In this document: positions 46,575 to 48,484 of the stretch, piece by piece
How positions within the stretch are numbered: position 1 is the stretch's first letter
Layout of the letters: each line of letters opens with the position of its first letter
Assembly: GCF_016863035.1 (NCBI RefSeq)
Contig: NZ_BOOC01000005.1
Span: forward strand, 1 to 64,000
Source: Microbispora corallina
GTDB lineage: Bacteria > Actinomycetota > Actinomycetes > Streptosporangiales > Streptosporangiaceae
Length of the DNA: 64,000 nucleotides
Direction of reading: 5' to 3'
The notes under the pieces: model-generated
The model's input: only the letters and a program-made list of their open reading frames with translations
Told to the model about the DNA's origin: nothing
Databases searched by the model: none
Position numbers and translations under genes: made by a program

Positions 46575-47084
46575 TCAGGCCCGTCCCACGAGGGACGCCG
46601 AGAGCGGCAGCCCGTTCCTCCTCAGCTCCCTGACCCGGCCCAGCGCCGCCCGTACCTCCCGGGAGACCAGCAGCGCGACGACCCAGGAGATCACGGCGGA
46701 GGTGATGCACAGCGTGCAGAACGTGCCGGTCAGGACGGGCTGCGTGATCACCAGGCCGACGCCGGTGACCGCGAACGCGGCCGCCGTCAGCCCGACGAGC
46801 AGCACGAGCCACGGCCGGTCGTGCCACCGCCGGCTGCCTCCGGACAGCTCCAGGACCGCCTCGGCGAGGTAGGCGACCGCGCCCAGCGTCGCGTCGGACA
46901 CCGGGAGCATGCGGGACACGGCCGACGTCAGCACCGCCCGGGAGCCGTCCCCGAAGAACGGATCCCACACCGACGACAGCACGCCGTACTGGAACAGCGC
47001 CAGGTAGGTCGAGACCGCGCACCCGAAAAGGGCCAGGACGGCGATGGGCACCCTGCTGCGGAACGAACTGGGACCATCCGACAT
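46575..47084 (-). CDS. Vitamin K epoxide reductase (VKOR) family membrane protein
   Basis: A 169-residue protein with four or five transmembrane helices (VPIAVLALFGCAVSTYLALF, WLVLLVGLTAAAFAVTGVGL, ITSAVISWVVALLVSREV). The redox motif is CTLC (Cys123-Cys126) in LTGTFCTLCITSAV. The conserved loop VWDPFFGDGSRAVL and the SRMLPVSDATLGA segment fit bacterial VKOR. It reoxidises periplasmic thiol oxidases using menaquinone. The paired loop cysteines found in full VKORs are not seen (only Cys22), so it may be a variant. It lies 38 bp after crcB on the same strand. Confidence 0.82.
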   Translation of the reverse strand: MSDGPSSFRSRVPIAVLALFGCAVSTYLALFQYGVLSSVWDPFFGDGSRAVLTSAVSRMLPVSDATLGAVAYLAEAVLELSGGSRRWHDRPWLVLLVGLTAAAFAVTGVGLVITQPVLTGTFCTLCITSAVISWVVALLVSREVRAALGRVRELRRNGLPLSASLVGRA

Positions 47085-47122
47085 GACGCCTCGACTACCC
47101 CTCAGGGCCCGGCGCAACCGGA

Positions 47123-47485
47123 TCAGGCGGTGAGCGCCTGCGCGATCACCAGGCCGACGAAAGCGGCACCCAGACCGGCGACCAGACCGGCCACGACGTT
47201 GGCGAGCGCGTAGAAGCGGGCGCCGTCCTGGACCAGGCGCAGGGTCTCGTAGCTGAAGGTGGAGTAGGTGGTCAGCGCCCCGCAGAAGCCCGTCCCCACG
47301 AACGCGGTGACCGCGGGGCCGGCGGGCAGCCCGGCGAGCAGGCCGAGCACCAGCGACCCCGCGACGTTGACCGCGAGGGTCCCCCACGGGAACACCGAGT
47401 CGTGGCGCGCCTGGACGAACCGGTCGGTGAGGTAGCGCAGGGGCGCGCCGATCGCGGCCCCCAGCACGACGAGCAGGACCGTCAT
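47123..47485 (-). CDS. crcB: Fluoride channel CrcB/Fluc subunit (second copy)
   Basis: A 120-residue membrane protein with four helices: [20 protein letters not shown] (GxxxGxxxRY start), [19 protein letters not shown] with the pore Asn, and [20 protein letters not shown], the fluoride-selective GFCGxLTTFS motif. Two CrcB subunits make an antiparallel dual-topology dimer that exports fluoride. Its start overlaps the DUF190 stop by four bases. Together with the copy at 47838-48350 it probably forms a heterodimeric channel, since paired crcB genes often encode opposite-topology subunits. Confidence 0.93.
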
Positions 47486-47838
47486 CCGGCGCCGCCCTCG
47501 GACGCGGGCCGCCCGGCGTAGCGGATCACCTCGACCGGGTCGAGCACGACCAGGCCCTCGGTGATCAGCTCGTCGAGCTGCGGGAGGAACGCCCGGATCC
47601 GGTCCTCCGCGTCGACGATGACGACCGCCACCGGCAGGTCGTCCGACAGCGACAGGATCCGGTCGGTGTGGACGCGGCTCGACGCGCCGTACCCCTCGAT
47701 GCCGCGCAGCACGGACGCGCCCGCCAGCCCGGCCGCGTGGGCGCGCGCCACGATCTCGTGATACAGCGGCCGGTGACGCCACCGGTCGGTCTCCCCGATG
47801 AAGACGGTCAGCCGTACGGCGGGGCCCGTCAGCCTCAT
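47482..47838 (-). CDS. DUF190 family protein of the fluoride-resistance operon
   Basis: A 118-residue protein: [60 protein letters not shown] and [20 protein letters not shown] are the DUF190 signature, a PII-like trimeric fold. DUF190 genes very often accompany crcB, but the role is unknown; a PII-like modulator of the channel is a reasonable guess. It is sandwiched between two crcB genes with TGATG and ATGA overlaps, so all three are translated as a unit. Confidence 0.92.
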
Positions 47839-48350
47839 CACGGCCTCCTCTCCCGGTGGCTCTCCCGGCGGCTCTGCGCGCGGGCCCGGCCGGCGCGGAC
47901 GGCGAACGACGTGACGGCGGCGCCGGCCCACACCGCCGTGAGGGCCGCGGCGAGCGTCGCCACGAGGTACGCGAGCGCCGTCACCGCCGCGCCCGCCGCC
48001 AGGGCCTGGTGGATGTCGACGACGTACGTCGAGAAGGTGGTGTAGCCGCCGAGCACCCCCACGCCCAGGAACGGCCGCAGCAGCCGGCGCCCGCTCCACA
48101 CCTCGCCGATCAGCACCATCAGCACACCGATCAGGAAACACCCGGACACGTTGACCAGGAACGTCGACCAGGGGAACCCGCCGGGCGGATGCGGCAGGGC
48201 GGTGGAGATCCCGAAGCGGGCGAGAGCCCCGAGCACGCCACCCGCGGAGACGGCGGCCAGAACCGGCAGCGGGCTGGGCCGCACCTCGGCGCGATCGGCC
48301 GGGACGTGGAGGTCGACATCGGGGTCGACGGGCGTGACCGGCTCCTGCAC
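47838..48350 (-). CDS. crcB: Fluoride channel CrcB/Fluc subunit (first copy)
   Basis: A 170-residue protein. A 30-residue acidic cytoplasmic extension is followed by four helices with [40 protein letters not shown] (pore Asn) and [18 protein letters not shown]. The conserved GFxGGxTTFS element appears here as [11 protein letters not shown]. The GTG at 48350 has GGAGG six bases upstream, and that Shine-Dalgarno is overlapped by a riboswitch-controlled hairpin. It exports fluoride together with the second copy and is the first gene of the operon. Confidence 0.93.
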
Positions 48351-48358
48351 TCGATCCT

Positions 48359-48390
48359 CCTACCGGCATGAACGCATCGCATGCGGTAGG
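48359..48390 (-). promoter_or_regulatory. Anti-Shine-Dalgarno hairpin coupled to the fluoride riboswitch
   Basis: On the minus-strand RNA CCTACC (48390-48385), the last strand of the fluoride aptamer, can pair with GGTAGG (48364-48359), which runs into the Shine-Dalgarno GGAGG (48360-48356). Inner pairing of GCATG with CATGC (48384-48380 with 70-66) extends the stem to 11 bp with one bulged G. Aptamer folding and this hairpin are mutually exclusive, giving translational ON control by fluoride. Confidence 0.65.
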
Positions 48391-48450
48391 GACCGTCGGC
48401 GACGCGGCGTCGCGGTTCTCCCCCTCGGGAACGGCGGGCCCCACCGCCGC
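48385..48450 (-). promoter_or_regulatory. Fluoride riboswitch (crcB motif)
   Basis: The minus-strand RNA shows the ordered conserved blocks of the fluoride aptamer: GGCGGTGGGGCCCGCC (48448-48433; consensus GGnGATGGnGYCCGCC), AACCGC (48417-48412), a short hairpin (GACGC/GCGTC, 48411-48401) and GCCGACGGTCCCTACC (48400-48385; consensus GCTGATGnCTCCTACC). It precedes crcB, its usual partner. The single departure at GATGG to GGTGG is a weakness to test. Confidence 0.8.
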
Positions 48451-48478: not shown

Positions 48479-48484
48479 ACTATA
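48479..48484 (-). promoter_or_regulatory. Likely -10 box of the fluoride operon
   Basis: TATAGT on the minus strand, about 30 bp before the first aptamer block, puts the transcript start near 48472. No good -35 hexamer is seen at 16-18 bp. Confidence 0.5.

Follow-up and report, generated by a model that had tools for sequence, protein, structure and literature searches.

Introduction

The crcB motif is widespread in bacteria and archaea, where it often overlaps terminators (PMC2864571), and in the fluoride aptamers whose structures have been solved A6·U38 forms a reversed Watson-Crick pair and A40·U48 a Hoogsteen linchpin (PMC11586693, PMC10687018; the position numbers used here are taken from the former). 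According to a review, about 15% of Fluc (crcB) genes and about 30% of CLC-F genes are regulated by riboswitches, other, unknown regulation of these genes is said to exist, and enolase and formate hydrogenlyase are named among the fluoride-riboswitch genes (PMC11139923). A study that profiled 1901 riboswitches drawn from the Rfam family RF01734 used the fluoride riboswitches of P. syringae and B. pseudomallei as translational controls (PMC13273304), and since translational fluoride riboswitches are thus already known, a translational mechanism alone is not new. The open-access literature, mostly in the form of titles and abstract beginnings, yielded neither a G6·C38 subclass nor an actinomycete subclass of these riboswitches.

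Here we describe an element before crcB1 of Microbispora corallina that is, with a probability of about 0.86, a translational ON fluoride riboswitch of an actinomycete G6·C38 subclass. Judged by its sequence and by that of its relatives, it is a variant of a known riboswitch, with an ordinary purpose and an unusual core, which is largely invisible to the current model.

The aptamer and the operon behind it

The window, that is, the whole 64-kb stretch that was analysed, comprises positions 1-64,000 of M. corallina contig NZ_BOOC01000005.1, and the element lies on its minus strand, as do all the features of the window given below. All blocks of the fluoride aptamer are present between 48448 and 48385, which bears out an earlier note on this DNA that had placed them on the minus strand before crcB-DUF190-crcB. 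Conserved block 1, GGCGGUGGGGCCCGCC (48448-48433), corresponds in sequence and in covariance-model alignments to the P1 stem (GGCG/CGCC) with its loop (48433-48448), where the alignment puts G6, which is A in canonical aptamers, at 48444 and U7 at 48443, followed by the 5' pseudoknot strand GGGGCC (48442-48437). Between P1 and the conserved AACCGC block (48412-48417), the final GC of which opens P2, sits an optional inserted hairpin, UUCCC/GGGGA (48419-48431), that was recognised by covariation in the alignment, as was the P2 stem-loop GCGAC/GUCGC (48399-48413). Conserved block 3, GCCGACGGUCCCUACC (48400-48385), contains the core strand C38-G39-A40-C41 (48395-48398; mostly UGAU in canonical aptamers), in which C38 (48398) is the partner of G6 and A40 that of U48, and the 3' pseudoknot strand GGUCCC (positions 42-47, 48389-48394), which covaries with its partner GGGGCC. 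The aptamer ends 34 nt from the GTG of crcB1 (48350), the Shine-Dalgarno sequence of which, GGAGG (48356-48360), is found 5 nt 5' of that start codon. As for a promoter, a consensus scan detected none of sigma-70 type in the leader, and a weak possible -10 box, TATAGT (48479-48484), was picked out by eye (the identical hexamer stands 5' of the aptamer in locus L039).

The aptamer is followed by crcB, DUF190 and crcB, and then by a gene of the VKOR family (gene order from Pfam). The first open reading frame, crcB1 (47838-48350, GTG start, 170 aa), belongs to the fluoride channel family (Pfam CRCB, 2.8e-26), and it falls below the curated cut-offs of the NCBIfam models for fluoride efflux transporter CrcB among the 25 matches listed. 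The translations of the next two identify a DUF190 gene (47482-47841; Pfam DUF190, 1.6e-39) and crcB2 (47123-47485; Pfam CRCB, 8.8e-29), the latter also scoring above the cut-off of TIGR00494. The VKOR-family gene occupies 46575-47090. Within the genus, the best crcB is about 48-52% identical to the M. corallina gene in 13 of 14 other genomes and 78% identical in the remaining one (G006), and no aptamer was seen by eye in the same-genus plus-strand crcB loci L011-L015 and L021-L023.

Detection by covariance models

The check proposed with the earlier note, a run of the Rfam crcB model over the region, gave no match at the gathering score, there or anywhere in the 64-kb window. A permissive search returned a full-length alignment to RF01734 of 14.9 bits, against a gathering cut-off of 34 (E = 0.13 in a 371-base search), 12 inserted nt separating P1 from the AACCGC block, and across the organism's own genome the same model had 13 matches of at most 19 bits, none of them at this locus. 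The model itself accounts for at least part of that miss, since among 20 named loci Rfam at its gathering score passes only the canonical aptamer of L079 and finds none of the 18 other loci of the G·C form; a canonical aptamer in one of those 18, L078:1364, escapes it too. Ten further loci searched permissively showed RF01734 in L134, L172 and L180 (28.9, 22.5 and 21 bits) and none in the other seven, all matches being below 34.

Relatives were collected by a search of genome contigs for the CrcB protein, which supplied at least 80 named loci, and 29 of these contained aptamers that fit a motif pattern, 30 in total; 28 stand directly 5' of a crcB match, and the canonical L078:1364 and L079:2483 stand before other genes. 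A covariance model built from 28 sequences (R1) included the window copy, for which reason a second one (R2) was built from 26 relatives, leaving out both that copy and its nearest relative, L039. Over the whole 8.36-Mb genome, R2 gives the window aptamer 71.7 bits (E = 1.6e-13) and the runner-up, among the 15 places listed, 22.2 bits. By this comparison, homology to the fluoride aptamer is confirmed and is not due to chance.

The actinomycete G6·C38 subclass

The M. corallina copy has G at position 6, C at position 38 (48398) and C at position 41. The earlier note had taken GGTGG for an unusual variant at a conserved position, of which the departure from canonical A6 stands and the rarity does not; on the evidence of the relatives, GGTGG marks a subclass that is common in actinomycetes and is not a local oddity. 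G6 is matched by C38, and the tertiary pair is therefore kept as G·C, so that across the subclass the reversed Watson-Crick pair of the core, A6·U38, appears to be replaced by G6·C38.

The spread of this form was gauged in 394 sampled genomes of the class Actinomycetes, with R1 and RF01734 both run under Infernal's stricter filters. R1 picked out 70 places scoring 35 bits or more, spread over 65 genomes, and RF01734 exceeded its cut-off in 11 of the 394, the CrcB protein itself being present in 362. The sample holds 62 G·C aptamers in 59 genomes (60 when M. corallina's own is counted, which makes at least 60 of 394) and 20 A·U aptamers in 12 genomes. Pooling of the R1 matches of all four sources (named loci, class genomes, RF01734 loci and other classes of the phylum) left 148 distinct ones, of which 136 could be anchored; the 12 that were dropped are three incomplete pieces (L138:1205 and both halves of a split element in L217), two G·C aptamers in which a base close to the 3' end is unusual (L198, L203) and seven with A at position 6 that do not fit the pattern (L159, L165, L175, L223, L224, L225, L234). 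The letters at positions 6/38 are G/C in 95, A/U in 22, C/C in 2, G/U in 1 and G/G in 1 of the 121 anchored matches of class Actinomycetes and A/U in 15 of 15 from other Actinomycetota classes, counts that mix genome-sampled matches with loci fetched via CrcB. U41 is usually C in the subclass, the commonest core being G6 with CAAC at 38-41 (79 non-redundant sequences); that of M. corallina, G6 with CGAC, is less common (10), and the canonical A6 with UGAU accounts for 17 sequences in the class and 14 outside it.

The two forms can be close neighbours. In Streptomyces HNM0575 (L078), the canonical aptamer at 1364 and variants at 2860 and 4746, the latter on the opposite strand, lie within 3.5 kb, and on the small contig of L161 an A·U aptamer stands about 180 nt from a G·C aptamer on the opposite strand. 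A gene for a dynamin-like GTPase follows the G·C aptamer there (L161:1-825, minus strand). In L122, a Rfam Transposase-2 RNA (1285-1368; 46.7 bits, cut-off 42.7) is found close 5' of a G·C aptamer.

Helices, pseudoknot and covariation

The fold was assessed in an alignment (A3) of 91 distinct rows aligned to R1, a model whose own structure contains neither the pseudoknot nor the pair 6·38. When both are added to the full structure, 96.9% of cells are paired, against 34.9-53.2% when the structure is slid along the alignment, and changes on both sides of a pair number 171, compared with 46.5 for shuffles and 9-42 for the slid versions. P1 is paired in 99.5% of cells, with both-side changes in three of its four pairs, the pseudoknot in 98.1% (three of six pairs) and P2 in 94.4% (five of five), and covariation thus recovers the P1 and P2 helices and the H-type pseudoknot of a fluoride riboswitch. 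Pair 6·38 is GC in 66 rows, AU in 22, GU in 1 and something else in 2 of the 91. The linchpin A40·U48 is present as letters only, A at 48396 and U at 48388 in M. corallina and, again as letters, each in 97 of 99 G·C matches.

Two points temper this picture. A tree of 148 CrcB proteins, computed from 145 alignment columns and with 35 of its 144 branches starred, can account for the A·U/G·C label with as few as two changes, and the covariation of 6·38 may accordingly rest on very few events. The inserted hairpin was 87.7% paired in an earlier alignment, with both-side changes in all five pairs, and it is 91.9% paired in A3, in which 70-72 of the 91 rows nevertheless have no letters there; since most rows lack it and some A·U aptamers, like some G·C ones, possess it, it is not a marker of the subclass. 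As for the leader taken as a whole, its 117 nt fold no better than shuffles (z 0.28), and the predicted minimum is the hairpin considered below, not the aptamer.

Gene context and the putative ligand

Fluoride is the ligand suggested by gene context. CrcB genes lie directly downstream of the window aptamer, as expected for the leader of a fluoride regulon, and crcB follows 53 of the 62 class-sampled G·C aptamers against 3 of the 20 A·U ones (Fisher p = 1.4e-8, kinship ignored). Of the 15 anchored A·U aptamers from sister classes, 11 lie within 800 nt of a CrcB match. A close relative of the aptamer precedes crcB-DUF190-crcB on plasmid pFRL5 of Streptomyces, the annotation of which calls crcB a fluoride efflux transporter. 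That site (L238; NC_023285.1, 45768-53823, from Streptomyces sp. F8) has a Tn3-family transposase nearby and, on its opposite side, a gene for a SulP-family transporter, and the riboswitch-crcB-DUF190-crcB cassette may therefore be mobile. Other genes found after G·C aptamers code for enolase (L215), a universal stress protein (Usp; L212) and an MFS-like protein that is below Pfam's cut-off (L201). Genes of the PPE family follow fluoride-type aptamers of both forms, A·U in L149 (445-1473) and G·C in L214 (436-900).

The alternative that survives best, although we consider it unlikely, is that the G6·C38/C41 core binds a ligand other than fluoride, or binds fluoride with a clearly different affinity or Mg2+ need. 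Changes in the core have altered the ligands of other riboswitches, and here positions 6, 38, 39 and 41 mostly change together, as the core strings show, five of the class-sampled genomes retain both core types, and the two types differ in their gene partners in the proportions just given. Against it stand the membership of CrcB in the fluoride channel family and the fact that A·U aptamers of the sister classes are also placed before crcB. The tRNA Levitt pair, moreover, is a precedent for G-C replacing A-U in a reversed pair. The aptamer in front of enolase points the same way, for this is one of the genes that the review lists behind fluoride riboswitches (PMC11139923). In our main reading, fluoride is the probable ligand.

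It is likely that the division of labour runs along taxonomic lines, with a canonical, partly terminator-type crcB switch outside the class and a translational crcB switch of the G·C type inside it. A more ambitious idea, which we put forward tentatively, is that the subclass, with its rebuilt core (G6·C38, mostly A39, C41), is specialised for crcB translation and is set apart from the A·U type by its affinity, its speed or its need for Mg2+, in which case genomes with both types would own two tuned sensors and respond to fluoride in a graded manner.

Proposed control of crcB1

How the aptamer might act on crcB1 is suggested by its 3' end. CCUACC (48390-48385) and GGUAGG (48364-48359) are perfect complements, as the earlier note had said of CCTACC and the GGTAGG that overlaps the crcB Shine-Dalgarno sequence. 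The contiguous match extends to 7 bp between the anti-Shine-Dalgarno strand CCUACCG (positions 46-52, 48384-48390) and CGGUAGG (48359-48365), with four further pairs beyond one bulged C, and the helix covers the first GG of the Shine-Dalgarno sequence. The resulting hairpin has a predicted energy of -15.2 kcal/mol, and an equal or better fold was obtained from 8 of 200 shuffles. The anti-Shine-Dalgarno strand overlaps the last two bases of the pseudoknot and the linchpin U48 (48388), and because the 5' side of the helix takes these bases, the aptamer and hairpin folds would compete; as in translational riboswitches, the Shine-Dalgarno sequence would thus lie in a helix that excludes the ligand-bound fold.

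We propose that (i) in the absence of fluoride, CCUACCG would pair with CGGUAGG, burying the first two G of the Shine-Dalgarno sequence, so that crcB1 would be poorly translated, (ii) fluoride and Mg2+ would allow the pseudoknot (42-47 with the P1 loop) and A40·U48 to hold C46, C47 and U48 and (iii) with this strand held by the aptamer, the full hairpin would be blocked, the Shine-Dalgarno sequence would be free and the fluoride exporter would be made. That fluoride turns the gene on, and that it acts at the step of translation, is inferred, and translational control by anti-Shine-Dalgarno switching is the best supported reading.

A rival, which we regard as improbable, is control of transcription, the hairpin being part of a terminator that is intrinsic or Rho-dependent. 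In its favour, a U-run (6 T in 8 bases, 5-100 nt past the aptamer) follows 8 of 15 canonical A·U aptamers in the sister classes (L220, L221, L226, L227 and L228 are examples; the U-run of L230 falls inside a gene), and a link between translational control and Rho-dependent termination features in the title of a reference in PMC13273304. However, not one of 95 G·C aptamers has a U-run after it, a consensus scan found no terminator in the M. corallina leader, and the 3' arm of the hairpin shows covariation where it runs into the Shine-Dalgarno sequence. These findings favour what the earlier note had proposed, a translational and not a terminator switch, although the lack of U-runs is not special to the G·C form, since none follows the 22 A·U aptamers of the class Actinomycetes either.

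It might be argued that CCUACC:GGUAGG is a chance match between the pyrimidine-rich end of an aptamer and a purine-rich Shine-Dalgarno sequence. This was examined in 97 G·C matches with an identifiable Shine-Dalgarno sequence (window copy included, two artefact rows dropped), in which the native helix running through positions 47-48 has a mean length of 7.99 bp. When arms are swapped between genomes the mean is 6.04 bp (sd 0.13; highest of 500 swaps, 6.42), and since swapped arms still pair, consensus alone yields much of the match. At a threshold of 5 bp the difference is accordingly small (88 of 97 native against 75.2 swapped, the helix being shorter in the other 9), and it widens at 7 bp (75 of 97 against 33.5 on average). 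With a second measure, helices of at least 6 bp occur in 86 of 99 G·C matches, against 60.5 after swapping and 29.6 after shuffling of letters; the native mean exceeds all 1000 swaps by one measure and all 500 by the other. Compensating pair types are found at positions 49-52, position 51 alone being CG, UA, UG, GC, AU or GU. Chance is thus a very improbable explanation, and the relatives lend support to the role of anti-Shine-Dalgarno that the earlier note had assigned to the last aptamer strand. The signal is weaker in A·U aptamers (10 of 20 against 6.5 swapped, with 3 of 1000 swaps reaching the mean score). Finally, that this is a decayed, non-functional copy of a fluoride riboswitch, as its low Rfam score might suggest, is hardly credible, for its helices are intact and, at positions 6, 38 and 41, the letters that set it apart from the Rfam consensus are those of its relatives too.

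Comparison with known fluoride riboswitches

Set beside the crcB motif of RF01734, the subclass shares P1, P2, the pseudoknot, the AACCGC block, A40 and U48, as well as its position 5' of crcB and other fluoride-regulon genes. It differs in having G6·C38 for A6·U38, C41 for U41 and, in most relatives, A39 for G39 (the M. corallina copy, which scores below the gathering cut-off, keeps G39). The hairpin inserted after P1 is absent from the Rfam consensus and present in some class A·U aptamers. RF01734 reports 11 of 394 genomes, and the G·C form alone occurs in no fewer than 60 of the 394; a blind spot of the model may thus explain some of the apparent gap in riboswitch control that the review describes, and collections that start from RF01734, among them the 1901 riboswitches of PMC13273304, would not be expected to include the G·C subclass. 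The subclass could also be of use to structural studies, since nature has here exchanged A·U for G·C in a tertiary pair of the core, and what fluoride trapping demands of that pair can readily be tested on the two forms.

As for how the aptamer is coupled to gene expression, the element resembles the transcriptional fluoride riboswitches of B. cereus and T. petrophila in that the 3' strand of the pseudoknot is shared by the aptamer and a competing hairpin, and it differs from them in that the competing hairpin holds the Shine-Dalgarno sequence and lacks a U-run. With the translational fluoride riboswitches of P. syringae and B. pseudomallei, by their description in PMC13273304, it probably shares a control that does not use an intrinsic terminator.
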